DNA from: Diabrotica undecimpunctata
Lineage: Eukaryota; Arthropoda; Insecta; Coleoptera; Chrysomelidae
Length of the DNA stretch: 64,000 bases
Assembly (NCBI RefSeq): GCF_040954645.1
Contig: NC_092803.1
Location: 62,982,484-63,046,483 of the forward strand
Reading direction: 5' to 3'
Below the pieces are notes generated by a model that was not told where the DNA came from, searched no databases, and saw only the letters and a list, made by a program, of their open reading frames with translations. Shown here one piece after another: positions 7,421 to 61,980 of the stretch (position 1 is its first letter; every line of letters starts with the position of its first letter). A program made the position numbers and the translations under genes.

Positions 7421-7691
7421 CCATAGCGGATATATTAAGATACTACTCTTTACCGCTCGTATTTTCAGATACTTGTCAGATGTCATCTGTTAATGTCAGA
7501 TACCAATTTTTCAATCCATGTTAAACTTCCAAAGAGTGTTAACATGAAATATAAATTTATATTGTAATAAATCCGTAAAATAGTTTCGAAACACAATGAG
7601 ATGTCGCTATTGCGTCCATATCGAAGGCATTTTAGTGTTGCTTCTTAAAGACAGAAAAGATTTATTTTTCACGTTGAGAAAGCCTATGAAT

Positions 7692-7737
7692 ATCTGTTCT
7701 GATGAGCCCTATTAGGGCGAAATACGTATAAACAGAT
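7692..7737 (+). ncRNA. Hammerhead ribozyme in the PLE A tail
   Basis: Core CUGAUGA begins at 7699. Stem II is GCCCU/AGGGC with loop AUU, then GAAA. Stem III is the palindrome AUACGUAU and the cleavage triplet is AUA. Stem I pairs AUCUGUU with AACAGAU (7 bp, perfect). All invariant core bases are present. Hammerheads with very short stem III are established in PLEs, and the position 3' of a GIY-YIG domain fits. Confidence 0.85.
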
Positions 7738-7759
7738 ACATAGACACTTTGTACGTGAA

Positions 7760-9222
7760 ATCGAATCTTGACTGTCTTTTTCATTTTATATTGTAATGTT
7801 TATAAAATAAAGTGCTTATTGAAAATGGCAAATAGCCGAAACTTTTAAGCAATAATTAGGTATTTTTATTTACAGGAGACCGATAATCCCAGGAAATAAA
7901 AAAGTTTCTACATAATATAATTACGTCTGTTAAGGTCATATTTTTTTAAAGATATAGTAAACCTCTAATCGATATATTTCAATATAAATATTTGAGATTT
8001 AGCAATGTATTTGTGCTAACTACTAAGCGCTTCTCAAGTTTCATGTGTCAAACAAATAATGAAATATATATTTGAATAAAATGATGAATAAAATGGTATA
8101 CATAAACTCAAATAAATGTATTTTTAATAATGTTTGATACAAAATGCTTTATCTCTGAATATAATCAACATAAAATAATAATGCATTTTCGCAATATACG
8201 AATACAGTGCATAATTGCATAAAAAAATTAATATATGTAAAAAGATCATTACTTAGTTACTATATTATTATTTACTTATGTAGAGTTTAGTGTAGGTATC
8301 CGAATGTTCTACGTTCGTCTTTTATCTTCGTATTTTACCTGTAACAAAAAAACATCTCTTAATTATCATTTTTAGTATATTATAATTTTAAATAATTTAT
8401 TTAACAATGCAAATTTTAATCAACGAAATAGGATTTGGCAACTCCGAAGCGAAAATTTGGCAAACTTTATTAATCAAACTATAAATCTCATTTTCCTATA
8501 ATGCATGAACACTAATTCAGCTGGATCATGTGTTACACACACATAAAACAAAGTATAAACCGGGTATAGCTGTTTAATTTAGATTACACAGACAATGAAA
8601 TAAAATCGGCGGCCCAACAACGGTATGAAATATGTTTTTGAAGCACCTAGTTGTGCAAAACAGTTGAAATAGGACTTGATTGAAAATTCATACGATGACA
8701 TATCCTATCCAGCACACAAGCAACAAATGAATTTCAGGTAGCGAGCAAACAAAAAATGTGTACTGCGAAATTAGTAATTTATAACCGATGAGAAGATTGA
8801 AAAACTGGACTAACATCACTGGATGTTTCCCGGATATATTAAAAATAATAATAAAACGGAAATGCATTCAGTTTTTTATATCGATTATTCGTTTATTACT
8901 TAACTTGATGAAAATCAATTAATATGCTGTATGTGGCAAAATGAAACGATTACAATAATTATATCGTATCTGATTAACTCTTTTACCATAGAATCTTTTA
9001 TAAAGTAGTGAACTTGTTCTATAAATTAATAAATAATAGTAGTGATATATCAGAAGTATTAGTAAATTTTTGAAGTTATACTTCTATACGCACGCTCCAC
9101 ATTGAAAATTTGTATGGGAGTGAATCTGTGAAATCATTACATATGTAAGATAATGAGTAAGAGAGAGACAGAAGATATATTTTCTCTCTATTCCTCTCTC
9201 GAATATAAAAATGTTCCTTTTG
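7760..9222. other. AT-rich stretch, no feature recognised
   Basis: No ORF above background, no transposon motif and no repeated ends seen. A pyrimidine/purine-biased patch (gagagagacag ... ctctctattcctctctc, 9160-9202) precedes the (TA)n run. Confidence 0.5.
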
Positions 9223-9224
9223 TA

Positions 9225-9301
<77 letters not shown>
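9223..9301. repeat. (TA)n microsatellite
   Basis: Near-pure TA repeat flanking the left side of the 688-bp palindrome, separated from it by about 32 bp. Confidence 0.97.
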
Positions 9302-9303
<2 letters not shown>

Positions 9304-9399
9304 GAACCAGAAGTATTTGCTGACAACGTAAGGAAGTAAACGTTAAATAGTGGGTTTGCAGCAATAAAAAATGAAACGAATACTCTTTTAAATTTTTAT

Positions 9400-9438
9400 T
9401 CCAAGCTTTCGGACATTGGTTATGTCCTTCATCAGGGA
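9400..9438 (-). ncRNA. Hammerhead-like ribozyme, left palindrome arm
   Basis: Minus-strand copy of the motif at 9917-9955: CUGAUGA, stem II GGACAU/AUGUCC, GAAA, palindromic stem III AGCU, NUH = CUU, stem I UCC/GGA. Confidence 0.7.
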
Positions 9439-9916
9439 GCTACAAATGTAATTAATAAATTGTTGGCGTTGGTATAATTAATTAAAAATTGTTTCTACTT
9501 ACAAACTTAATGAGGTTGTATCAAAGAAGATGTATTATGTTGATAAAATTTATCATAGTCTCTCATCTATTTTAATATATAAAAACTATTTTTATGTTTA
9601 AAAATTTTAAAAAAATTACTGTAAATCCAAAAACACTTAATTATTCTAAATAAATACGTGACATTATTTTGAAAGAATTTTGTCAAAATAATGTCACATA
9701 TTTATTTAGAATAATTAAGTGTTTTTGGATTTACAGTAATTTTTTTAAAATTTTTAAACATAAAAATAGTTTTTATATATTAAAATAGATGAGAGACTAT
9801 GATAAATTTTATCAACATAATACATCTTCTTTGATACAACCTCATTAAGTTTGTAAGTAGAAACAATTTTTAATTAATTATACCAACGCCAACAATTTAT
9901 TAATTACATTTGTAGC

Positions 9917-9955
9917 TCCCTGATGAAGGACATAACCAATGTCCGAAAGCTTGGA
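9917..9955 (+). ncRNA. Hammerhead-like ribozyme, right palindrome arm
   Basis: CUGAUGA starts at 9920. Stem II is six perfect pairs (GGACAU with AUGUCC), followed by GAAA. Stem III is the palindrome AGCU with cleavage triplet CUU. Stem I has only three certain pairs (UCC/GGA), which is the weak point. Confidence 0.7.
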
Positions 9956-10018
9956 ATAAAAATTTAAAAGAGTATTCGTTTCATTTTTTATTGCTGCAAA
10001 CCCACTATTTAACGTTTA

Positions 10019-10020
<2 letters not shown>

Positions 10021-10104
<84 letters not shown>
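10021..10104. repeat. (TA)n microsatellite
   Basis: Begins exactly where the palindrome ends, so the element inserted in or next to a TA tract. Confidence 0.97.
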
Positions 10105-10267: not shown

Positions 10268-10339
10268 TCCTCGGTAGTATAGTAGTCAGTATCCCCGCTT
10301 GTCACGCGGGAGACTGGGGTTCGATTCCCAGACGGGGAG
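10268..10339 (+). tRNA. tRNA-Asp (GTC)
   Basis: Cloverleaf with acceptor TCCTCGG, A box TAGTATAGTAG, anticodon stem CCCGC/GCGGG around loop TTGTCAC (anticodon GTC at 10301-10303) and B box GGTTCGATTCC at 10318-10328. It closely follows animal nuclear tRNA-Asp. Three unusual pairings weaken it: the last acceptor pair is G-A, and the T stem TGGGG/CCCAG has a T-G and a G-A. It could be a functional variant or an early tRNA pseudogene. No CCA is encoded, as expected for a nuclear gene. Confidence 0.88.
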
Positions 10340-15064: not shown

Positions 15065-15110
15065 TTTTAACCTGATGATGGAACTGTTGTTCCGAAAACG
15101 TTCGTGTTTT
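15065..15110 (+). ncRNA. Hammerhead-like ribozyme
   Basis: CUGAUGA at 15072, stem II GGAAC/GUUCC with loop UGUU, GAAA, palindromic stem III AACGUU, cleavage triplet UUC. Stem I is poor: only one or two pairs next to the core. It is probably a PLE or retrozyme tail; a LINE fragment starts about 60 bp downstream. Confidence 0.6.
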
Positions 15111-15509: not shown

Positions 15510-15909
15510 TATAAATGAAGATAAAAGAGATGTTCTCTTGCATGGTTCGACCAACCAGTATTTTAGACATAAGATTAAAAAAGGAGGTACAAAATAGGCA
15601 GGTCATATAACATTAATTTTAAGTCTTCTTGGTTTACAGAATTCAATTAGCTGTATAGTAACACAGCGTTACAAAAATTATATTGCTGGCCGTGTTTATT
15701 TTTTAAAATACATATTCTGTGTGGAATAAAGATGATTTTACAGTTTTTTTTTTAAATATTAATCGATCGTTGCATAAGCACGCAGATTCTGAAGAGCATT
15801 TAAAAAACCAATTAATGTTTAGAAATTTAGAACAAAATAAAAATACGATTGCAGATGCCTTAAAAAACGCTAAATTATGTAAATTAAAATTTAATGAAAA
15901 TGTTCGACT

Positions 15910-15920
15910 AAAGAGGATTT
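15910..15920. repeat. 11-bp target-site duplication, left copy
   Basis: AAAGAGGATTT, repeated exactly at 16667-16677 on the other side of the ribozyme element. Confidence 0.93.
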
Positions 15921-15995
15921 AAATTAAATGGTCAAATATATGGCCTAGGAGGACAAATTCGTTAAACTTCCCGTGCTCGAATCGGTATCAATAAA

Positions 15996-16036
15996 GGTTT
16001 ATGATCATTTCGGCCTAGCCCAGCCTCATCAGACAC
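15996..16036 (-). ncRNA. Hammerhead ribozyme, minus arm (stem I damaged)
   Basis: Same core as the plus copy at 16510-16550, but the downstream stem I strand reads AACC instead of ACAC, so stem I is mostly lost. Confidence 0.7.
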
Positions 16037-16509
16037 TTTGGGCTGATACAAATTCAAACTCGGAAAGTCCAACGAATGTCTCCCAAAACTTCACTACAAC
16101 AGTAGTTAGCTACAAAGGCGCCACCTGCTTTGGCGGCCGTGAATGAAAACGATATGATAATATCTTTTTCTGTATCCTCTGCGCTATGCGAAATGTGTAA
16201 AAGATATAATCTTTTAGCGAAAGCCGCTATCGCTTTATTAAATTAAATGGCCAAATATATGGCCTAGGAATATATGGCCTAGGCCATATATTTGGCCATT
16301 TAATTTAATAAAGCGATAGCAACTTTCGCTAAAAGATTATATCTTTTACACATTTCGCATAGCGCAGAGGATACAGAAAACGATATTATCATATCGTTTT
16401 CGTTCACGGCCGCCAAAGCAGGTGGCGCCTTTGTAGCTAACTACTGTTGTAGTGAAGTTTTGGGAGACATTCGTTGGACTTTTCGGGTTTGAATTTGTAT
16501 CAGCCCAAA

Positions 16510-16550
16510 GTGTCTGATGAGGCTGGGCTAGGCCGAAATGATCATAACAC
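16510..16550 (+). ncRNA. Hammerhead ribozyme, plus arm
   Basis: CUGAUGA at 16514, stem II GGCU/GGCC-type four pairs with loop GGGCUA, GAAA, stem III palindrome AUGAUCAU, cleavage triplet AUA, stem I GUGU/ACAC (perfect). All invariant core positions are intact. Confidence 0.85.
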
Positions 16551-16666
16551 TTTATTGATACCGATTCGAGCACGGGAAGTTTAACGAATTTGTCCTCCTA
16601 GGCCATATATTTGGCCATTTAATTTAATAAAGCGATAGCGGTTTTCGCTAAAAGATTATATCTTTT

Positions 16667-16677
16667 AAAGAGGATTT
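16667..16677. repeat. 11-bp target-site duplication, right copy
   Basis: Exact copy of AAAGAGGATTT at 15910-15920; the hAT reading frame resumes here. Confidence 0.93.
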
Positions 16678-17282
16678 GTTTGCGGATAGTTATTGATGCA
16701 GTTTTGTACCTCAGCAAACAATAGTTGCCTTTTAGGGGACATGATGAGAAGAGAAACTCAAGTAACAGGGGTAATTTTAAGGAGTTAATAAATTTGTTAA
16801 TTGTTCAAAGCCCATTGGAAACTAAAAATCATAAACCCTTAAATGGTGAGGTGTACAATATGTTGCGTACTAGGTGACGTGCGGTCTTAGCGTACCCCAT
16901 TTTTAAAATAATGTTTTTCGGCTTGTTTTTTTATAAATTTAATAAGTGTTTACATATTGTATATTTAAACTACAAATAAAAAAAATATTTGATTTTAAAT
17001 AGCTGCATTGATTATTACATGATTATTTAACACATTCTGAATAGAACCCTTTATTTTGACAAGCATAAACTTTATTGAAGTTAAATGTGTCGATAGCAAT
17101 TAAAGTAAATTGTATACTCACGCTTAATCAAGCCATTAAGAGCGATGCTGGGAATATTTATATTCCACTATGCATCAACAATTTACCCATATAAATTACC
17201 ATCTTTCTTGTACTAATTGCGTCGAGTAAGGACGATAAATATACGAAAATGGTTGCGTTTCGATTTAATTTAAGTCTCTTAC

Positions 17283-17329
17283 CACTCTCTAACACGTGTT
17301 TCTGGGTCTACCCGTCATCAGAGAGAGTT
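17283..17329 (-). ncRNA. Hammerhead ribozyme (best stem I in the window)
   Basis: On the minus strand: stem I ACUCUCU pairs with AGAGAGU (7 bp), core CUGAUGA, stem II GGGU/ACCC, GAAA, stem III palindrome ACACGUGU, cleavage triplet GUU. One doubt is the C-A opposition closing stem II next to the core. Confidence 0.8.
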
Positions 17330-17542
17330 TGTAAGAAGACTCAAACCAAATCAAAACCGCACCGACTACTCTGGCAATTATAAAAAAAATAATTACCAGA
17401 GTATGCTACTAGAGACATCTAGTGATGAAAGATGAAGTTAAATGTGTCGACTAAATGTGTTAAAAGTTAGTCGGTGCGTTTTGATTTGGTTCGAGTCTTC
17501 TTATAAACTCTCTCTGATGACGGGTAGACCCAGAAACACGTG
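17293..17542. repeat. Inverted hammerhead repeat, second hAT interruption
   Basis: Arms 17293-17367 and 17469-17542 are inverted copies of about 75 bp with a one-base offset. The roughly 100-bp spacer holds its own hairpin (CTCTGGCAATTAT with ATAATTACCAGAG-like pairing, 17371-17413). The right arm stops within a few bases of the predicted ribozyme cleavage point, where hAT coding resumes. No target duplication was recognised. Confidence 0.85.
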
Positions 17543-21007: not shown

Positions 21008-21030
21008 TATATATATATATATATATATAT
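21008..21030. repeat. (TA)n target flank of the LTR element, left
   Basis: Short TA run ending exactly at the 5' LTR; the matching TA run lies at 31040 onward. Confidence 0.95.
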
Positions 21031-22974
21031 TGTTACGTTCCAAATTTAAAGTAGAAAGTCCCACCTCTATTTTATCAAAATTTAAATAATTCAGGACGTG
21101 TAAGAGCGGTTGCCTATAATATATTATAAGCAAGGTGGCGAAAATAAAATTAGTAATTTTCAAATAGGGGTAATGTCTGGCAAATTGTGCTGAAGTTAAG
21201 GGAACACGTCCTCTTTTTTGTGAAGAAACTAATTTAGATCGTTCTTTCTAGAGTTATCTTGGAAGAATTGGGATCATAAAATTGAAATTTTTGAATCTCG
21301 GTACTATTCGGTGACCTCCGTGTGTCAAGTTGTCAAGTGTTCGGAAAGACGACGGAAAGAAAGTGATTCCAGGTTTGAGAGTGTTACTGAAAGGTTGGGC
21401 TAGATTAAAAACGGCATTTTTGTTTTTTTGCTTTTGCTGCTGTTCCATGTGGGATCTGGACTAGTCCGAACCGTGTGGATATTCAAGGGGATTTGCTGCC
21501 TTCGTGGAAGGGTTTTTTTGGAATATCCACAATTTCGCTAAAAAAAGCGGATCTACAGTACACGTGAATACCGGGAGTCGTATTTAGATCAAGAAATTAG
21601 CCTTAATCACGAGTCCAAATAGCCGGCTACGCTTCGGTCCAATTTGGGATATTTCAAACCCCTAATCTGGCTAAGAAGGGTGAGTGTTAGAACATTTCGT
21701 TTTTAATTAATTAAAAAGTTGTAGTTATTTTTTTATCCCATCTCTAAAAAGCTATTCACATTTTTATCAGTTTTCATACATTCAAGTTCGGAGACAAGTT
21801 TTTTTTTGTATTGCTCCATTATCGCCAAAAGGCAGATAAACAAAGTGTTAAAATCAATATATTTATTTCCAAATAATTATTTTAGACACAGATGGTAATT
21901 AATGTTTTCTTGCTTCAGGGTTGGTTGGTTGGTTTGTTTGTTTTTTTCTGCTTCTTCTTCTTCGTATTTTTCCATCTGGCTGTAATTTTCAACTTTTCAA
22001 CATTGTCACACAAGTCTATGTACATCGGCAATCGTATGGGATTTTGGATTGAAGACACGCTGAACTATAACTGGAATTCCACGCGGTGAAGTATATGAAT
22101 ATTCGAGGTATGGATCGATAATTAATTTTCAACGGAAGATTTAAGCACCGTCTAATTTGGTTTGCGGAATACAATAGTTTTTTTTTAAAGATTATTTGCT
22201 GTTAGTTTTTATTTTCATATTTACAAATACTTTACAGATTTTTTTTAAAGATAATTTGCGGTTTATTTTATTAATTCAATATTTACACATACCTATTTTA
22301 ATTTTGTAAACTGCGTCTAAGGGGGGGTTATATATTTGAGATTTATTTTTTTTATATTATTTTCTGCGCACGCACTTGAGCTCACGTGGTGTCCTATTTG
22401 CGTTAATTATTTTTTTTTGGTTGGTATTGAACCGCACACCCCTTAGCGTCCGGTACTTTTGACACGTCTTACCTTTCATTTTGTTCTGTTAAGTAGAAAT
22501 AACTTATGAATTTTTGTTAGGCAAGCAGAAGCCGCATTTTTATATTATTTTTTTATTAAGCCTATGGTAAAGTTAAATAATATTGTAATATGTAATATGT
22601 ATGTATTTATTTTCAACTATCTTGGGAATCTATTTATTAAAATTGACTAAATTCTAATCTGACAATTTCATTTATTTTTTTATTTATTCAGGTTGTATAC
22701 TGTTACTTAGTATTTTAGTAGTAAACCTATTGGTAAGTTGGTGGTTTATTGAATAGCAACGTAGGGAAGGCTGTGGGCCAATTTACCTGGCGCCCCTGAT
22801 ATAACTTCGGATTTTTTTGTTTTGTGGACCGCACGACCATCTCCACTGTTTTGTCTAGCCGCGAGCCATTCCCAGACTGTCACCGTATAGTACTTTTCTT
22901 TCCGGGTGTACGTCTGATTTATATTTGGTACAATTTGTAATTTTTTTTATATAGATTCGGTTTTGTACGCCACA
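21031..22974 (+). repeat. 5' LTR
   Basis: Starts TGTTACGTTCC and ends GTACGCCACA (TG...CA). It is 1,944 bp, long for this group, with no ORF of note. The same sequence recurs at 29096-31039. Confidence 0.96.
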
Positions 22975-22979
22975 TATTT

Positions 22980-22997
22980 TGGCGCCCAACGTGGGGC
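22980..22997 (+). other. Primer binding site, complementary to tRNA-Lys
   Basis: TGGCGCCCAACGTGGGGC begins five bases after the LTR. It is the complement of the 3' end of animal tRNA-Lys(CUU) including CCA, a perfect 18-nt match to that known tRNA end. Confidence 0.9.
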
Positions 22998-23633
22998 CCT
23001 TAATTAATTAACCTTTTTTTGTCAACCCCTTGTCTAGATTCCTTTTAATTAGTTAACCTAACGTGTTTGGGCTTTAATTGACTAACTTTGATTTATTTAC
23101 TTTACCACTGGTTTTGCACTTAGTAGTAGTCTTAGAACTTCGTGTTTAGTGGAAGTGTATGCCAAGAAGTGCTTACTAGTTTTTTTTGTGTGACGTGAAG
23201 TTGGAAGAAGCCAAAAATGTAACTTAAAAGAAGATACTTTGAAGTGGTGTTGTGGAACTTAGAAGAATTATGGATATATTAGGACTTTGAAATATTTCTA
23301 TTTCAGTTGGAGTTCAAATTTATTTTTTTGAGAAGTTGGACTTCGAAATTCTACATTGTGGTTTAACTTACTTATGTTAGGGAATGTAAAATCTTTTTTT
23401 GAGATTATGTTGTGACTTGTAATTTGTTCTGAAACAATGAAATTTTGAAAATCTTTTGTGAAATTTTATAGATTGAATAAAGCGACTATTACTTTTATTT
23501 TGCTTTTGGTTTGCTCCCATTAATAAAGTAAACTGTACCTGTGTGTTAATATTTTTACTTATATCTTGATTTTGTTTGAATATTTGCTCCTTTCGGTTGA
23601 TACATTTTTTTTTAAATTTTGAACTTTGGCAAG

Positions 23634-25016
23634 ATGGTGCGAAAACTTGTACCCAACTACTTAAGGAAAGAGGAACTGGAATATGAACTCAAAATTCGTG
23701 GAGTGTCTACTGGCACTGTTGAGTCTATGAGGTCTAGTCTGTCTGATGCACTTAGACGTGAGGCAGCAAATGAAAGCTTTAGATATCCTGAGCACCCATT
23801 CACCTTTTCACAGGATAAAACTGCAATCGAGACTAAACTTGCGGAGCTGAATACGGCTGTTGGAAAGTTTGCCGGAACTCCTACTTGTGCTGAGTCCTTG
23901 AGATTGCGGACACAGATTAACCATGTCTTGGGGAGAATTGATCTTATGGTATTGCCAACAGGTGATGATGCAGACGCAGCCCAGGTTGTTAAGTCAGACT
24001 TTCTTGCTGAGATTTTGAAGTTGTCACAGGATTTACATGATAAGCAGCATCCAATCGGATCTGGTTCGGTACCAGTAGCGCTCGATGTGATTTCGGTTTT
24101 AAATCAGTCTTTTCAGGCAGGGGTAGGACAAGTTCATGCTTCTTCTCCTGGAGCGATGTCACAAGCTGGTAATAATGTTTTTTCAGGGTCTGTCTCTAGT
24201 TTTTCTTCTGGGATGATACTTCCTCATAAATGGGGAATAGAAAAGTTTTCAGGTTCTGCTAGGGGTATGTCTATTTCTGCATTTTTTGAGATGGTGAATG
24301 AATTGAGTCTCGCTCGTCATGTACCAGATAGTATACTTTTGGAATCAGGTATAGATTTATTTTCGGATAAAGCCTATCAGTTTTATAAAGATGTTCGTCT
24401 ACGTGTAGGGAGTTGGGCTGAATTAGTTGAAGAGTTTCGTAGGGAGTACCTGTCAGCTCACCATGGGGAAGCGCTTTTTGAAGAGCTTCGGAGGAGAACT
24501 CAGCATTCGTCTGAGACTATTGGAGTTTACTTGGCAATAATGAATAGTTACTTTAATCGCTTGCGTTGTCATGTTCCAGAGGAAGTTAAATTGTCTATAG
24601 TTATTAGGAATTTGCATCCGTTCTATCAAGATAGATTACGTGATCCTTTGCCAGCTACCTTGGAGGAACTTCGTGTTCTATGTCGCAGTATGGAGGAAAG
24701 ACGTGATTGTATTAGGAACTATGTTGAACCGAATAGTAGGAAAATGAATACTTTGGAAAAGGACCTAGCTTATATCAGTGTGGATGCTGAAAGTTGTAGT
24801 AGTGTTAGTGAGGGTCCTGTTGTTTCATCCGAATCGGAGTCCGCTAGAGGAAAGTTTAGGACTTTAATCTGTTATCGTTGTAATCAGTCAGGCCATAAGG
24901 CAGTAGGGTGTCTAATGAAGAAGGAGGCTGTTCACTGTTTTAAGTGTAAGAAAGAAGGGTTTACAGTCAGAACTTGTCCTTCGTGTAATTCGGGAAACGG
25001 AAGGAAGCGCACCTAA
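23634..25016 (+). CDS. gag: Gag polyprotein of the Ty3/gypsy element
   Basis: 460 codons from the first in-frame ATG (MVRKLVPNYL); an upstream TTG at 23619 is not needed. It makes the structural protein of the cytoplasmic virus-like particle and packages the element RNA. An N-terminal LRKEELEYELKIRGVSTG segment looks like a SAP-type helix pair. The central LSLARHVP...REYLSAHHGE...IMNSYFNRL region is a retrotransposon capsid fold (about residues 200-360). Two zinc knuckles follow at about 413 (CYRCNQSGHKAVGC, complete CCHC) and 435. The second reads CFKCKKEGFTVRTC: Phe replaces the zinc-binding His. The end of gag overlaps pol by 28 nt and holds the frameshift site. Confidence 0.95.
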   Translation: MVRKLVPNYLRKEELEYELKIRGVSTGTVESMRSSLSDALRREAANESFRYPEHPFTFSQDKTAIETKLAELNTAVGKFAGTPTCAESLRLRTQINHVLGRIDLMVLPTGDDADAAQVVKSDFLAEILKLSQDLHDKQHPIGSGSVPVALDVISVLNQSFQAGVGQVHASSPGAMSQAGNNVFSGSVSSFSSGMILPHKWGIEKFSGSARGMSISAFFEMVNELSLARHVPDSILLESGIDLFSDKAYQFYKDVRLRVGSWAELVEEFRREYLSAHHGEALFEELRRRTQHSSETIGVYLAIMNSYFNRLRCHVPEEVKLSIVIRNLHPFYQDRLRDPLPATLEELRVLCRSMEERRDCIRNYVEPNSRKMNTLEKDLAYISVDAESCSSVSEGPVVSSESESARGKFRTLICYRCNQSGHKAVGCLMKKEAVHCFKCKKEGFTVRTCPSCNSGNGRKRT

Positions 25017-28000
25017 CTGGTCGAAGAGGTGTTGCCGACGTTGACTCGACCAACCTACGTCCTATTTTAGACTTTATTTTACATCATTCCGAAGGAGATG
25101 AACGTCCATATTTGAAAGTTAAAGTCTTAGGAAAGGAAATTTTGGGATTATTGGATTCTGGTGCTTCAAAGACCATTGTAGGAAGAACTGGTTGGAAATT
25201 TTTACAAAACTTGGGTTTAGAGTTGGATACTTCGAAGAAGACCGTTTGTAGAGTGGCGAATGGTCAGATGTGTGAATCGTTGGGGGAATGTTTAGTACCT
25301 TTCATGGTTAGGGATCGCTTGCGTATCTTGCCAGTATTAGTTATTTTGGACGTACCGCACATTCTGATTTTAGGATCTGATTTTTGGCGTGTTATGGGTA
25401 TCGTTCCAGATTTGAGGCATAACGAATGGTATTTTTCGGACGCTCCAGCAATGGTAGGTTCAGTGGATCATCTCCGAGGTCAAACTATTTTGACCGATGC
25501 AGAGAAGTCGCAATTGGATGAAGTTATTAATAGAAGTCGTGAACTAATGGGCACTTCTCTTGGTTGTACTGATGTCACTGAGCATGTGATTGTTTGTAAA
25601 TCTGCACCCATAAAACAACGTTACTATCCTGTATCCCCAGTAATCCAAAGCCATATTGATAAAGAGCTAGAAGATATGTTGGCGAAAGGAGTAGTGGAGC
25701 GATCGAATAGTGCTTGGTCGTCCCCGATTCTCTTGGTGAAGAAAAAGGTTCCAGAAGGTGAAGAACCAAAATGGAGGTTCTGCGTAGACTATCGAAAGCT
25801 TAATGCCGTAACAGAGAGGGATGGCTACCCATTACCGTACATCTCTAATATTTTAAATAAATTAAAGAACGCGCATTATCTTTCCACCATAGACATTAAG
25901 TCGGCGTATTGGCAGGTACCTGTTGCTAAGGCTTCCAGGCCTTATACTGCTTTTACGGTTCCTGGTCGAGGTCTTTTTCAGTTTTGCAGAATGCCTTTTG
26001 GATTACATAATGCCCCGGCTACATGGCAGAGGTTGATAGATCGTGTCCTCGGTCCGGAGTTGGAACCCTATGTTTTTACTTACTTGGATGACGTGGTCAT
26101 CGTGACAAAGTCTATTGAAGAACATGTAAGGATCTTAGAGGAAGTCTTTAGACGCTTGAGAGAAGCTAAGTTAACCGTTAGCTGGGATAAATGTCAATTT
26201 TGTAGACCGGAACTAAAGTATTTGGGTCATGTGGTTGATAGGAATGGACTACATGTTGATGGTGATAAGGTCAAGGCTATGCTACGTATCCCAACACCCA
26301 CATCCGTCAAGGAAGTTCGTAGCATCATAGGCACATTTTCCTGGTATCGAAGATTTATTCCTTCCTTTGCGACACTACTAGCTCCAATTACAGCGATATT
26401 GAAGAAAGGAAGAAAATTCAATTGGACCCCGAGTTGTGAAGAATCTTTTCAGAAAATAAAAGAATGTCTAGTTTCTGCTCCGATACTTAATTGTCCTGAC
26501 TACAATTTGCCTTTTGTTGTCCAATGTGATGCCTCAGGATATGGAGTGGGCGCCGTGTTATTGCAGCCAGGCCCGGATGGTGACGAAGTAATTAGTTTCC
26601 TGAGCAGATCACTAACGCATCAAGAAAGGAGTTTTTCCACGACGGAACGGGAATGTTTAGCTGTGTTATGGGCAGTCGAAAAACTGCGTCCTTATTTGGA
26701 GGGTGTTCCGTTTACGGTCGTGACTGATCACGCATCCCTCGTATGGCTTCAAAATTTGAAGGATCCTACTGGAAGATTAGCTCGATGGGCGGTAAGATTG
26801 CAACAATATGACTTTAAGATTGTGCATCGGAAAGGAAAAGAACATGTTGTCCCCGATTTGTTATCTCGGTCAGTTCCCGTGCTTGATATGGTTGAAGAGG
26901 TTGTACCGCTTCCTAGTGGTGATAGTTGGTATGATAAACTTTGTAGAAAAATCGAGTCTAATCCCTTGAAGTATCCTCAGTGGAGAATGTCTGGTGGCAA
27001 ACTTTATAAATACATCCGTCCCAGTTATGGATTTTTGGTCGAGGAAGCGGACAATTGGAAGGAAGTCGTTCCTAAGGGTCAACGATTGGAAGTGCTGAAG
27101 TTGTGTCATGATAGTCCTTTAGCAGGTCATATGGGGATCCTGAAAACTTATAAGCGTATTAACGAGAAGTATTTTTGGCCGAAACTGCGGAGTGATGTGT
27201 CTCGTTACGTTGGACGTTGCTCACTGTGTGCCATGCATAAGGTGGAACAAGGTAAGCCCAAAGGCTTTATGACTCCTCAACCTAAAGCTACTCAACCATG
27301 GGAGATAGTAGCAACCGATCTTATGGGACCTTTCCCAAGATCAACTCAAGGCTATAAGTTTATCTTAGTGGTAATGGATGTGTTTAGTAAATTTTCTTTG
27401 GTATTTCCGTTGCGATCCTCAAAAGCCGTGCATGTCGTTAAGAAAATAGAAGAAGAAGTTTTCCTCGTATTTGGAGTTCCACGTCTGTTACTATGTGATA
27501 ATGGTGTCCAGTATACTTCGGGTATTTTCAAGAAAATGATGGAAACCTATGGTGTCTCAGTTCGTTATAATGCGTTGTATCATCCACAGTGCAATCCATC
27601 TGAACGCTATAACCGAACCCTTAAAACAATGATGGCAACTTATATAGCTGACAACCATAAGAAGTGGGATGAAAATTTGGCCAAACTAGCATGTGCTACG
27701 CGCACTGCATACCACGAGTCGACTGGTCAAGATCCCTACTTCATAAATTTCGGTCGGAAGATGGTAGTGGATGGACGAGATTTTTCCCGAAAGGACAAAC
27801 TCGGAGACCCGGAGGACGAAGTAGCTAAAATGGGATATAATCGATCGCGTGGACTCCAGGAATTATTTGTTGATGTTAGAAAACGTTTAGATAAAGCTTC
27901 GGCTAAGTGTGAGAAGACCTATAATCTACGGAGACGTCCAGAGGAATTTCAGCCCCATCAGTCAGTATGGCGGAGAAATTTTGTGTTGTCAGATGCCGCT

Positions 28001-28171
28001 AAATATTTCACGAAAAAGTTAGCTCCTAGATGGATAGGACCCTACTTCGTGAAGAAGAAAGTTTCCCCCTGGACATATAGTTTAGAGGATGAAAATGGCA
28101 AGGATCAAGGTATTTGGAATATTAAGGATTTAAGGATTAGTAACCCGACTGGTGATCCCGATAGGATTTAG
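24989..28171 (+). CDS. pol: Pol polyprotein (protease, RT, RNase H, integrase)
   Basis: One open frame of 1,060 codons, expected as a Gag-Pol fusion after -1 frameshifting; it has no ATG of its own near the start. Numbering from 24989: aspartic protease LLDSGASKT (Asp about 56); RT with STIDIKSAYWQVPV, FQFCRMPFGLHNAPATWQRL and catalytic YLDD (365-368); RNase H with FVVQCDASGYGVGAVL (Asp about 514) and FSTTERECLAVLWAVEKLRP; integrase zinc finger H707-H714-C744-C747; DDE core at D777 (TDLMGPF), D837 (CDNGVQYTS) and E872 (NPSERYNRT), with 34 residues between the last two; then a GPYFVKKK C-terminal module. All catalytic residues I looked for are present. The stop is at 28169-28171. Confidence 0.96.
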   Translation, partial: FGKRKEAHLTGRRGVADVDSTNLRPILDFILHHSEGDERPYLKVKVLGKEILGLLDSGASKTIVGRTGWKFLQNLGLELDTSKKTVCRVANGQMCESLGECLVPFMVRDRLRILPVLVILDVPHILILGSDFWRVMGIVPDLRHNEWYFSDAPAMVGSVDHLRGQTILTDAEKSQLDEVINRSRELMGTSLGCTDVTEHVIVCKSAPIKQRYYPVSPVIQSHIDKELEDMLAKGVVERSNSAWSSPILLVKKKVPEGEEPKWRFCVDYRKLNAVTERDGYPLPYISNILNKLKNAHYLSTIDIKSAYWQVPVAKASRPYTAFTVPGRGLFQFCRMPFGLHNAPATWQRLIDRVLGPELEPYVFTYLDDVVIVTKSIEEHVRILEEVFRRLREAKLTVSWDKCQFCRPELKYLGHVVDRNGLHVDGDKVKAMLRIPTPTSVKEVRSIIGTFSWYRRFIPSFATLLAPITAILKKGRKFNWTPSCEESFQKIKECLVSAPILNCPDYNLPFVVQCDASGYGVGAVLLQPGPDGDEVISFLSRSLTHQERSFSTTERECLAVLWAVEKLRPYLEGVPFTVVTDHASLVWLQNLKDPTGRLARWAVRLQQYDFKIVHRKGKEHVVPDLLSRSVPVLDMVEEVVPLPSGDSWYDKLCRKIESNPLKYPQWRMSGGKLYKYIRPSYGFLVEEADNWKEVVPKGQRLEVLKLCHDSPLAGHMGILKTYKRINEKYFWPKLRSDVSRYVGRCSLCAMHKVEQGKPKGFMTPQPKATQPWEIVATDLMGPFPRSTQGYKFILVVMDVFSKFSLVFPLRSSKAVHVVKKIEEEVFLVFGVPRLLLCDNGVQYTSGIFKKMMETYGVSVRYNALYHPQCNPSERYNRTLKTMMATYIADNHKKWDENLAKLACATRTAYHESTGQDPYFINFGRKMVVDGRDFSRKDKLGDPEDEVAKMGYNRSRGLQELFVDVRKRLDKASAKCEKTYNLRRRPEEFQPHQSVWRRNFVLSDAAKYFTKKLAPRWIGPYFVKKKVSPWTYSLEDENGKDQGIWNIKDLRISNPTGDPDRI
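24992..24998 (+). promoter_or_regulatory. Predicted -1 ribosomal frameshift site GGGAAAC
   Basis: In gag frame the bases read TCG GGA AAC GGA, so GGGAAAC has the X XXY YYZ form. Slipping back one base enters pol, whose frame opens at 24989 and passes the gag stop at 25014-25016. A possible stimulatory stem pairs TGGTCGA (about 25018) with TCGACCA (about 25047). The spacer is longer than usual, so the stem is less certain than the slip site. Confidence 0.75.
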
Positions 28172-29095
28172 GTCGGAGTAGAACGGACTAGCAAAGTTTT
28201 GTCTAGTCTAAGTAAATTCTTCTGAAATTGGTTGTATTTATTTTTTTTTGTTGTGTCCGTGAAGGATGACTGAGTGTTGGCTATGATCGGTTCTTAGGAT
28301 GTATTTGGATGGTCAACCGATTCGTTTTTTTTTTGTGTTAGGTAGCCAATACGAAGTCGTAGGGTTGCGGTAGCCTTAATTTCTTTTGATTTATGGAATT
28401 GAATGTCACTTAGGTTTGGTCAGAAATATGTTGTCTTCGATGATATGGCGTTGGGATTTGTTTTGATGTTAGTAAGCCATTCTATTTAATTGGGATTTTT
28501 TCGAAGCCACATAATTATGTTTTGGTGAATCTTGTTGGATAATAGCTTAGTTTTGGATGATTCACTAAATTTCGTTGTATACGGATTTAAATTCTGAAAG
28601 ACCTATCTCATTTTTATTTTAATGAACAATTGGAATTACACTACTGTTTCGGTAGATGTTTCTCGCAGTATCAGTAAGAGTCGAGTGGTGGAGAGTTTCT
28701 TATGGACTCATGTTATGCGAGGTATAGTGAAGTACTAGCGATGCCCCAGAGCTGGGAGGTCGCGAATAAGGGCAACATCCAGTAACCGACCAAATCAGTG
28801 TTGTCAGATTGACGTTGGAATTTGAAACTATTCTACTTGATCTCATACGATGAGAGATGACTGTTGTGTGGAAGTGGAGTAAGTGTTGTAAGTAAGTTGT
28901 TGCTTTGTGCGTGTGGTTTGAGGTTGGTATGTCTTTCGTTGTCCAAGTACTTGCGCATGGTGAAGACGGTGTGGATGATGATTGTGTGGATTGTGTGGAC
29001 TTCGCTCAGAGTTTAGGTAGTGTGTCGCTAGCGCGAGGGAAAATTTTCTTCGTCTAGTTTTTCCTCGTAAATTTTCCTCTGGGAAAGGGAGGTGT
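28172..29095 (+). other. 3' untranslated region of the LTR element with polypurine tract
   Basis: No env-like reading frame. GGGAAAGGGAGG at 29081-29092, three bases before the 3' LTR, is the likely plus-strand primer (polypurine tract). Confidence 0.8.
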
Positions 29096-31036
29096 TGTTA
29101 CGTTCCAAATTTAAAGTAGAAAGTCCCACCTCTATTTTATCAAAATTTAAATAATTCAGGACGTGTAAGAGCGGTTGCCTATAATATATTATAAGCAAGG
29201 TGGCGAAAATAAAATTAGTAATTTTCAAATAGGGGTAATGTCTGGCAAATTGTGCTGAAGTTAAGGGAACACGTCCTCTTTTTTGTGAAGAAACTAATTT
29301 AGATCGTTCTTTCTAGAGTTATCTTGGAAGAATTGGGATCATAAAATTGAAATTTTTGAATCTCGGTACTATTCGGTGACCTCCGTGTGTCAAGTTGTCA
29401 AGTGTTCGGAAAGACGACGGAAAGAAAGTGATTCCAGGTTTGAGAGTGTTACTGAAAGGTTGGGCTAGATTAAAAACGGCATTTTTGTTTTTTTGCTTTT
29501 GCTGCTGTTCCATGTGGGATCTGGACTAGTCCGAACCGTGTGGATATTCAAGGGGATTTGCTGCCTTCGTGGAAGGGTTTTTTTGGAATATCCACAATTT
29601 CGCTAAAAAAAGCGGATCTACAGTACACGTGAATACCGGGAGTCGTATTTAGATCAAGAAATTAGCCTTAATCACGAGTCCAAATAGCCGGCTACGCTTC
29701 GGTCCAATTTGGGATATTTCAAACCCCTAATCTGGCTAAGAAGGGTGAGTGTTAGAACATTTCGTTTTTAATTAATTAAAAAGTTGTAGTTATTTTTTTA
29801 TCCCATCTCTAAAAAGCTATTCACATTTTTATCAGTTTTCATACATTCAAGTTCGGAGACAAGTTTTTTTTTGTATTGCTCCATTATCGCCAAAAGGCAG
29901 ATAAACAAAGTGTTAAAATCAATATATTTATTTCCAAATAATTATTTTAGACACAGATGGTAATTAATGTTTTCTTGCTTCAGGGTTGGTTGGTTGGTTT
30001 GTTTGTTTTTTTCTGCTTCTTCTTCTTCGTATTTTTCCATCTGGCTGTAATTTTCAACTTTTCAACATTGTCACACAAGTCTATGTACATCGGCAATCGT
30101 ATGGGATTTTGGATTGAAGACACGCTGAACTATAACTGGAATTCCACGCGGTGAAGTATATGAATATTCGAGGTATGGATCGATAATTAATTTTCAACGG
30201 AAGATTTAAGCACCGTCTAATTTGGTTTGCGGAATACAATAGTTTTTTTTTAAAGATTATTTGCTGTTAGTTTTTATTTTCATATTTACAAATACTTTAC
30301 AGATTTTTTTTAAAGATAATTTGCGGTTTATTTTATTAATTCAATATTTACACATACCTATTTTAATTTTGTAAACTGCGTCTAAGGGGGGGTTATATAT
30401 TTGAGATTTATTTTTTTTATATTATTTTCTGCGCACGCACTTGAGCTCACGTGGTGTCCTATTTGCGTTAATTATTTTTTTTTGGTTGGTATTGAACCGC
30501 ACACCCCTTAGCGTCCGGTACTTTTGACACGTCTTACCTTTCATTTTGTTCTGTTAAGTAGAAATAACTTATGAATTTTTGTTAGGCAAGCAGAAGCCGC
30601 ATTTTTATATTATTTTTTTATTAAGCCTATGGTAAAGTTAAATAATATTGTAATATGTAATATGTATGTATTTATTTTCAACTATCTTGGGAATCTATTT
30701 ATTAAAATTGACTAAATTCTAATCTGACAATTTCATTTATTTTTTTATTTATTCAGGTTGTATACTGTTACTTAGTATTTTAGTAGTAAACCTATTGGTA
30801 AGTTGGTGGTTTATTGAATAGCAACGTAGGGAAGGCTGTGGGCCAATTTACCTGGCGCCCCTGATATAACTTCGGATTTTTTTGTTTTGTGGACCGCACG
30901 ACCATCTCCACTGTTTTGTCTAGCCGCGAGCCATTCCCAGACTGTCACCGTATAGTACTTTTCTTTCCGGGTGTACGTCTGATTTATATTTGGTACAATT
31001 TGTAATTTTTTTTATATAGATTCGGTTTTGTACGCC

Positions 31037-31341: not shown

Positions 31342-31860
31342 TTTTTTAATATATGGTATACAGCCAAATACAGGAACGTAGATTCCTTGTGGATGATTAT
31401 AAATAAATTGTTGTAAGTGCATTCTCATGATCTTTCTAGTTCTTTACACATCAAAAACCTTAATGTTTTTTACTTAAGTTTTTATAATAACTTTTTTTAT
31501 ATACATGTATGATCACATGTTCTTTTGCTGTGCTAATTCTGTTAATTTGTAAACTATACCTAGTTTTAATTAATTGTTTTATACAACTTTAACTCTAAAT
31601 GTCCAGTATCGTAAGCTTTTTCATATTTTTAACATCATTGACTGATACATGTCTTTGTAAGGTAACACACATGTTTTTAACTTCTCTATGGATGTTTGGT
31701 TTCATATTGTTCTTTTTAGATGAACTGATGATACTTTCTGAGCAGAAAGCGAAACGTCTTCAATAAATAGATGAAGTAGCCACCTTCTTTGTGTGTTATT
31801 TCTCCACATTGACCGAAAAACCCAAAAAAACTCTTCGAGTGTACCTTAGTTTATTTTGGA
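31342..31860 (+). mobile_element. PLE 3' tail with hammerhead (PLE C)
   Basis: Non-coding. It aligns by eye with the tail of PLE B (about 41935-42230): shared landmarks are TCTTTTGCTGTGCTAA, TAATTTGTAAACT, TGTCTAGTATCATAAGCTT-like and AGTAGCCACCTTCTTTGT. So it is a 5'-truncated copy of the same family, keeping a hammerhead that PLE B has lost. A (TA)n run follows. Confidence 0.8.
31721..31762 (+). ncRNA. Hammerhead ribozyme in PLE C tail
   Basis: CUGAUGA at 31725, stem II CUUUCUG/CAGAAAG (7 bp), GAAA at 31751, palindromic stem III ACGU, cleavage triplet GUC (the classical one), stem I UGAA/UUCA. Confidence 0.82.
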
Positions 31861-39325: not shown

Positions 39326-42515
<3,190 letters not shown>

Positions 42516-60875: not shown

Positions 60876-61980
60876 CTTATTAGGCTTTAATTTGACATTA
60901 GAATTACAAAAAAAATATTTGAATACTGACAAGTTCCTGTCACAACATTTAGAACACTAAATTATACTACATTCACCCGTCCCTATTTTTGAACAAAATA
61001 TTGCAACTATTTTGGTTTATTTTTAGCTCCAGCTGATTTACAGCTAGAATGAAAATCTGAATTTTCCAATCTTGGTTCATCATTATCATCAGGTTTTTGA
61101 ACAGGTAAATTTTCTGTCTCATCTGGTATTTATTTAGTAGTGGAATTCTCTAGTGTGTTATTTGGACTTTCATCATTATCTTGATTCAATAATATAACAA
61201 TTCAACAGTAAACTTCTTATATAGTGCAGAGCACATGGTAAAGCAGTTTTCCATTAAGTGAATTCTAAATTTTTGGTTTTCTATGCTAGATTCACCAATT
61301 TCCATATAACTCATTGTATTTTTCGACTTAACCATTTTCTTCATGATTATATGGTGTTGTTCTACTTGAATATATTCCTTTAGAGTGTAGATAATTAATA
61401 AATTCTTGTGAAGTAAAGCTAGTTCTCCTTGTTAGATTTGATATATACCATCATTCTATATAAACCAAATAGTGATTTAATCTGTAATTGGTTAGAATTG
61501 CTTTTCTACCAGATAATGTCTGCATTTTTTTAAATACTTCAACTCATTTGCTTTTTTTTCAATTGCATAATGTTTTTATTCAGAATCTGTGAGGGTATGT
61601 GTGAAAAAAGCAATTGGTTTTCCAGATTGATTGCTTCGCTTATGTAATCGTAGATTAATTTTTTAAAAGCATGTACTTATCTTTACCTTCTAGGGATTTA
61701 TCTTTAGATTCATTGCTTTCTAAAAAATTCTTGAATGTTATATACTTACTAATGTTTGAATTCTTTGGTGGAAGTTTGACAGTTTGGACCAGCCTCTAGT
61801 TTATCTGGTCTAAAGTACTTCCCCATTGTAAATTTATGCGAATAAAATTGTAGTAAAATGTCTTTTGCAGAATTAGGCTTTTATTCACATAAAACTTGAT
61901 AAGAATGACAAAACAATTATTTAAATACTGACCCGTTCTTGTCACAACATTAAGAAAACTAAATTATACTACACATGGCT
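60876..61980 (-). mobile_element. Internally deleted Ty3/gypsy-type element (minus strand)
   Basis: Two direct copies of a roughly 95-bp sequence bracket the region: one spans about 60880-60972, the other about 61874-61975. Both contain TCACAACATT(T/A)AGA and ACTAAATTATACTACA and look like short LTRs. Between them the minus strand encodes remnants in order: a gag-like YFRPDKLEAGPN and KEFKH block (about 61830-61770), an RNase H-like SGKPIAFF..TLTDSE (about 61620-61570), and integrase pieces FTSQEFINYLHSKGIYSSRT, TPYNHEENG and VEKYN (about 61420-61330). Protease and most of RT are missing, so the element shrank by deletion. Confidence 0.7.

Follow-up and report, generated by a model that had tools for sequence, protein, structure and literature searches.

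The 64-kb stretch of DNA that we analysed, referred to here as the window, carries a 746-bp insert (15921-16666) that lies between exact 11-bp repeats and is apparently lodged in the relic of a transposase gene (Table 1). The insert is built from one 319-bp unit, present first in inverted orientation, then in direct orientation, and finally as the opening 71 bp of a further direct unit; both the exact duplication and this composition, a protein-less insert made of a minus unit, a plus unit and the start of a third with a period of 319, had been put forward in the first-pass annotation and are borne out by our repeat comparison.

Table 1. Features of the insert and of the relic that it interrupts, by position in the window.
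Feature	Position	Strand	Basis or remark
Left flank (71-codon open frame), read as the left-hand portion of the interrupted transposase relic	15707-15922	+	Open frame; 15921-15922 belong to the insert
Left copy of the target-site duplication, 11 bp, AAAGAGGATTT	15910-15920	.	Exact match to 16667-16677
Inverted part of the insert	15921-16277	-	Repeat comparison
Full inverted 319-bp unit	15950-16268	-	Repeat comparison
Hammerhead-like motif of the inverted unit	15985-16049	-	Core CTGATGA begins at 16032, minus strand
Two tandem copies of AATATATGGCCTAGG	16254-16283	.	Centre of the inversion
Full direct unit, 319 bp, 41% GC	16278-16596	+	Repeat comparison
Putative type I hammerhead motif of the direct unit	16497-16561	+	Strict scan (core 16514+)
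Start of a further direct unit (71 bp including one base common with the duplication)	16597-16666	+	Repeat comparison
Right copy of the target-site duplication, 11 bp	16667-16677	.	Exact match to 15910-15920
Right flank, DUF4371 (hAT-like) transposase relic with an in-frame stop	16678-16874	+	Pfam

The duplicated 11-mer has no further occurrence on either strand of the 64-kb window, and a match of this length between the two sides would arise by chance with a probability of ~9e-7 for fixed boundaries, or of 4e-4 if each boundary is allowed to slide over 21 positions. When the preceding T is included the flanking match grows to 12 bp (15909-15920 and 16666-16677), the right-hand T being one that the unit also supplies. 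At both outer junctions, unit and target have bases in common: 2 where the inverted arm overlaps the left duplication, and 1 where the partial third copy overlaps the right one. Excising the insert together with one repeat copy (757 bp, which is not a multiple of 3) places both flanks in one frame. The right flank alone scores 34.8 bits against DUF4371 (cut-off 32.1), a domain found in hAT-like transposases, and the score is 35.1 bits when the left flank is joined to it; searched alone in Pfam, the left flank matches no family above that family's own cut-off. Since the left flank adds almost nothing to the score, its membership of the gene rests on its 71-codon open frame, so that the suggested transposase identity comes from the right flank and the joining of the two flanks from the frame. 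The earlier proposal of a hAT gene that reads through after excision is thus upheld as regards the frame shared by the flanks, but its domain support comes from one side of the insert. The gene had in any case already decayed, as its in-frame stop attests.

The anatomy of the insert can be read directly. Its inverted arms (15919-16268 and 16278-16627) are 350 nt long, 97% complementary and separated by a spacer of 9 nt, and the direct-repeat spacing is 319. Between the full direct and inverted units there are 8 differences in 319 positions, of which 5 are transitions and 3 transversions, and the 71-bp partial third copy differs from the direct unit at 3 of 71 positions and from the inverted unit at 1 of 71. 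At its outer end the inverted part extends into the next unit, up to unit position 31 (including the 2 nt common with the duplication), and a tandem slip of 15 bp is completed, on the inner side, by 9 further nt; the turning point of the inversion is the palindrome CCTAGG (16278-16283). On the right, the insert stops at about unit position 71, where the hairpin TAAAAGAT-TAT-ATCTTTTA has its base. When the outer 60 bp of each side are compared, the left end matches the right end only at an offset of ~41 bp, and the extension is hence one-sided. The layout combines an inverted pair, set head to head around a palindromic centre, with a one-sided extension and a short duplication. The longest stop-to-stop frame within the insert has 83 codons, and an ORF of PLE type (reverse transcriptase plus, in most cases, a GIY-YIG endonuclease) is absent, there being no frame above that length; a Pfam search of a single short frame, the one crossing the right junction, returned no family. 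The 319-bp unit has no evident coding capacity, as judged from these frames. By BLAST it occupies a single locus within the 64-kb window, the best match elsewhere being 31 nt long (E 0.039).

In the direct unit, the motif reads GUAUCA-GCCC-AAAGUGU-CUGAUGA-GGCU(GGGCUA)GGCC-GAAA-UGAUCA-U-A-ACACUUU-AU-UGAUAC. Stem I comprises an outer helix (GUAUCA/UGAUAC), an internal loop (GCCC/AU) and an inner helix (AAAGUGU/ACACUUU); the core is CUGAUGA...GAAA, stem II is GGCU/GGCC, and stem III has two pairs, A-U and U-A, capped by GAUC, a palindromic tetraloop. All letters of the hammerhead core are present, and by the general rules for hammerheads the predicted cut would fall between 16546 and 16547. A strict scan for type I hammerheads required the core, a stem I no shorter than 5, a stem II no shorter than 3 bp, and a stem III with 2 or more pairs that ends in U; it finds sites at 7699+ and 16514+ in the window (2 in all) and 0 in 300 dinucleotide-shuffled windows. 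The pattern of letters thus supports assigning the direct unit a candidate hammerhead. Whilst an intact hammerhead on the plus strand had been noted before, and the motif does pass the strict scan, the stems had been described otherwise than we find them: stem I has 7 bp plus a 6-bp outer helix rather than 4 bp, and stem III has two pairs plus GAUC. In the inverted unit stem I is damaged, with AACCUUU in place of ACACUUU (two letters); this motif does not pass the strict scan, and its predicted fold loses stem I.

Searches by family model and by folding energy give a less favourable picture. For the insert region, Rfam at E up to 10 yields 26 sub-threshold matches with no hammerhead among them, most being microRNA-precursor models that fit the long inverted repeat and the rest snoRNA, sRNA and similar models; for the motif of the direct unit alone, again at E up to 10, it yields nothing. 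The predicted lowest-energy fold of the isolated motif differs from a hammerhead (-19.2 kcal/mol, vs -10.5 for the active fold). Folded as a circle, the 319-nt unit is predicted to reach -115.5 kcal/mol (z -9.6, 100 shuffles). That fold pairs 68% of the bases and encloses the hammerhead core in 44 pairs, the core itself being misfolded.

Hammerhead-like cores are not confined to the insert. The relaxed pattern CTGATGA-N(6-20)-GAAA occurs 10 times in the window, as against 0.74 on average and 4 at most in 200 shuffles, although one of the ten, at 61092 on the minus strand, is by eye unlike a hammerhead. Six of the ten sit in three inverted pairs (9334-10021, 15919-16627 and 17293-17542), each of them head-to-head with its cores directed away from the centre; considering that the two arms of a pair are copies, these amount to three observations and not six. 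All cores in the window other than 16514 and 7699 fail the strict scan, including one at 31725. At 7640-7790 a long rod (-45 kcal/mol) bears a solo hammerhead at its tip, with its core at 7699+, an 8-bp stem I, a 5-bp stem II and AUACGUAU as stem III; no tandem copy is reported nearby. The match of this site to Rfam Hammerhead_1 (19 bits, E 0.024) falls short of the cut-off, 34, and the site is possibly the monomer relic of a second retrozyme family. At 9334-10021 lies a near-perfect palindrome between (TA)n arrays, with 344-nt arms that are 99% complementary, no spacer and an outward hammerhead-like core in each arm. An Rfam search of 9300-10025 returned nothing at E up to 1, and to judge by its cores this palindrome looks like an inverted PLE terminal-repeat pair. 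The pair at 17293-17542, with outward CTCTCTGATGACGGGTAGACCCAGAAACACGTG, lies inside the same transposase relic ~600 bp to the right of the insert and shows no clear target duplication by eye; for this pair, for the palindrome and for the core at 15072, the PLE-like label is a provisional one drawn from the cores. The window further contains a young-looking Ty3/gypsy element (21030-29394, with 300-nt direct repeats reported as 100% identical and long gag and pol frames) and a tRNA gene (10268-10339, 40.4 bits), the sole Rfam match of the whole window at gathering cut-offs.

How does the insert compare with the retrozymes of animals? Type I hammerhead retrozymes in insects and other animals are already described, and so is the proposal of PLEs as their likely movers (PMC7229834, PMC7761336, PMC8969392). 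According to Cervera and de la Pena (2020), retrozymes of animals measure ~170-400 nt and have in PLEs a strong candidate for their mover; the same paper gives type I hammerheads, repeats of 150-450 bp, a GC content below 50%, insects among the hosts, and target duplications larger than the 4 bp of plant retrozymes (PMC7229834). The insert resembles the animal non-LTR retrozymes so described in that its unit is protein-less, 319 bp long, of 41% GC and equipped with a type I hammerhead motif, in that its duplication of 11 bp exceeds 4 bp, and in that the RNA of the unit is predicted to be highly self-paired (PMC7229834); the 2016 retrozyme paper gives self-pairing of more than 70% for its own RNAs (PMC4918200). 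The unit is also close in size to the hammerhead repeats of newt and axolotl (~330-350 bp), and its stem III recalls that of axolotl HHR_Amex1, which has a very weak helix III and a palindromic tetraloop, and for which constructs with two such motifs cleave far better than those with one (PMC7229834). Unlike animal non-LTR retrozymes, with which we compare it by class features, the insert has only one full direct unit plus a full inverted unit, and whereas the repeats of newt and axolotl number tens of thousands of copies, the 319-bp unit is known here from one insertion, in a genome of arthropod appearance that seems insect-like to judge by its transposons. There is nonetheless good support for a retrozyme-like element that encodes no protein, bears a hammerhead motif and has a target duplication. 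This much stands of the earlier suggestion that a retrozyme-like family is mobilised in trans by PLEs, whose second half we regard as only plausible.

The layout hints at Penelope. In Adineta vaga, the Penelope (Pen2a) insertions described in PMC3846280 have an inverted pLTR adjoining direct ones and an optional 31-bp extension at one end; several copies carry duplications of 8-10 bp and others none, and the head-to-head junctions carry palindromes, which were read as self-priming. The insert is like Pen2a in its repeat order, its one-sided extension of ~41 bp, its 11-bp duplication and its palindromic head-to-head centre, and the inverted-plus-tandem layout that had been said to match Penelope products does so when set against these descriptions (PMC3846280). 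It is unlike Pen2a in having no RT-endonuclease ORF, and its direct-unit hammerhead is less reduced than those of PLEs, described as minimal (PMC7761336). One Adineta case comprises a foreign gene between pLTRs, moved in trans with the pLTRs alone (PMC3846280). In an Anolis PLE, reverse transcription begins inside an RNA stem-loop (PMC11167929). The right end of the insert, at the base of a hairpin, may parallel such a start, an analogy that we draw here.

A probable PLE relic also lies in the window itself. Pieces of a reverse transcriptase and of a GIY-YIG-like endonuclease lie at 39.3-41.4 kb, and we take them to belong to a decayed PLE; since the GIY-YIG match in Pfam reaches 16.3 bits, below the cut-off of 22.6, this label rests on sequence motifs. 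Of the 54 candidates scored when the endonuclease piece was searched as a protein, none reached E 0.001. Behind the ORF of the relic, at a distance of 0.5-0.9 kb, lies a stretch that is 75-76% similar to 31.4-31.7 kb, beside core 31725, and such PLE-linked similarity flanks this core on both sides (75-76%, plus a 28-bp piece at 93%). The two PLE-related stretches occupy 31403-31801 and 41903-42228, and ~72 bp that contain the core in the first are missing from the second, at 42.2 kb; this is the only core that appears tied, loosely, to a PLE by sequence. From the match of layouts and the decayed PLE in the window, mobilisation in trans by PLEs seems plausible.

Our favoured reading, which we consider somewhat probable, is that the insert belongs to a new retrozyme family, likened to retrozymes by its class features, and that it was inserted by PLE-type reverse transcription. 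We infer a non-autonomous element whose 319-bp unit would give a long rod of RNA tipped by a type I hammerhead. Transcripts of presumed tandem copies at other places in the genome would be cut into monomers of 319 nt, the weak and palindromic stem III making it probable that pairs of hammerheads do the cutting, and the monomers would be circularised by a host ligase, in keeping with the published model for animal retrozymes, in which tandem copies are transcribed, hammerhead-cut, circularised most likely by tRNA ligase, and copied by the reverse transcriptase of an autonomous element (PMC7229834). A PLE reverse transcriptase could then have nicked the transposase relic and primed on the target, with reverse transcription starting near the hairpin at unit position 71 and more than one turn of the RNA being copied; fold-back on the palindrome CCTAGG, or a jump to a second RNA, would have generated the inverted copy, and the 11-bp duplication would have been left behind. 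Considering that the arms differ at 8 of 319 positions, simple self-copying needs either mutations after insertion or a second RNA template.

Several points weigh against this reading. The tandem pair by which retrozymes are defined is incomplete: beyond its one full direct unit the locus has 71 bp of another, its second hammerhead is inverted and damaged, and with only one intact hammerhead the locus alone should not release a monomer. The lack of any Rfam hammerhead score at E up to 10 and the lowest-energy fold, which is not that of a hammerhead, likewise count against it. As to action in trans, the template of the Anolis PLE in vitro needed the first 172 nt of its own ORF, hammerhead cleavage not being needed (PMC11167929), whereas the 319-bp unit has no ORF; the Adineta authors found no cross-mobilisation between the two PLE types and take the enzyme and its cis sequences to have adapted to each other, and some Penelope copies come without a duplication (PMC3846280). 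Moreover, a duplication of 11 bp is not specific to PLEs, as it fits LINEs too. We thus put forward only tentatively, and as slightly less than an even prospect, the more specific claim that this is a retrozyme with a near-canonical hammerhead which bears the Penelope insertion fingerprint, that is, a self-primed palindromic head-to-head centre, a one-sided extension from a hairpin and a short duplication.

Could the unit instead be the pseudo-LTR of a PLE family, with the coding part missing here and the insert a pLTR-only product? This is unlikely in our view, though it is the chief rival: Adineta Penelope has pLTRs of 181-218 bp that are found both in tandem and inverted, extended on one side and accompanied by short duplications, there are reports of solo pLTRs (PMC3846280), and PLEs do carry type I hammerhead motifs (PMC7761336). 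Against it, the hammerheads described for PLEs are minimal and without helix III or loop contacts (PMC7761336), and it is cores 16514 and 7699 that pass the strict scan, whereas PLE-linked core 31725 fails. Nor does the 319-bp unit match anything else in the window at better than the E of 0.039 given above, where one PLE with coding remains is available for comparison.

We find it decidedly doubtful that a LINE moved the retrozyme, with the inversion produced via twin priming on multimeric or circular RNA. The 11-bp duplication lies within the LINE range, and LINE-type reverse transcriptase and endonuclease pieces are present in the window. Hammerhead repeats of Nematostella, with 15-bp duplications, have been likened to LINEs (PMC4918200), and the published facts that speak against PLE trans-action (PMC11167929, PMC3846280) speak here in favour of a LINE. 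Against this, a palindromic centre and a one-sided extension are features reported for Penelope (PMC3846280), and the right end of the insert has no A-rich or simple-repeat 3' tail.

Two further explanations we hold to be very improbable. The long inverted arms and the 11-bp duplication resemble Mutator-type foldback elements, but we rejected a DNA transposon of foldback or MITE type, with inverted repeats of 350 bp, on the asymmetric ends: the repeats are not terminal (offset ~41 bp), and the right end is the start of a further tandem unit. If an ordinary palindromic repeat merely happened to contain the hammerhead-like motif, in inactive form, this would agree with the motif's want of Rfam recognition and with a predicted lowest-energy fold of another kind, but hardly with a strict motif found in 0 of 300 shuffled windows and a core enclosed by 44 pairs.

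Neither the exact core nor the relaxed pattern has a match in viral contigs (0 in each case), and phages and plasmids gave no match. Among genome contigs the relaxed pattern matched once, in a bacterial MAG, which we took for chance and set aside as a relative, seeing no matching stems around it by eye. As the collections searched consist of viruses, phages, plasmids and prokaryotes, and may lack the window's own genome, these negatives say little about animals. In the retrozyme and PLE-hammerhead literature, passages on 'inverted' in four main texts (PMC7761336, PMC8490949, PMC11722881, PMC4918200) contain no description of a head-to-head layout in a retrozyme; one mentions inverted repeats inside schistosome W-elements (PMC8490949). 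It is this head-to-head layout of the insert, more than the family or the proposal of a PLE, that is less ordinary.

What, then, would such an insertion mean for the spread of retrozymes in animals? Their mover has been proposed to be either PLEs or LINEs, from co-occurrence, the tandem habit and shared hammerheads (PMC7229834, PMC7761336, PMC11722881). An insertion with legible junctions and a reading frame around it makes the layout itself informative on which enzyme spreads animal retrozymes, and the question of the mover becomes testable by counting head-to-head junctions among other copies in the same genome. If true, a retrozyme with a Penelope fingerprint would constitute direct genomic evidence of PLE machinery moving animal retrozymes.
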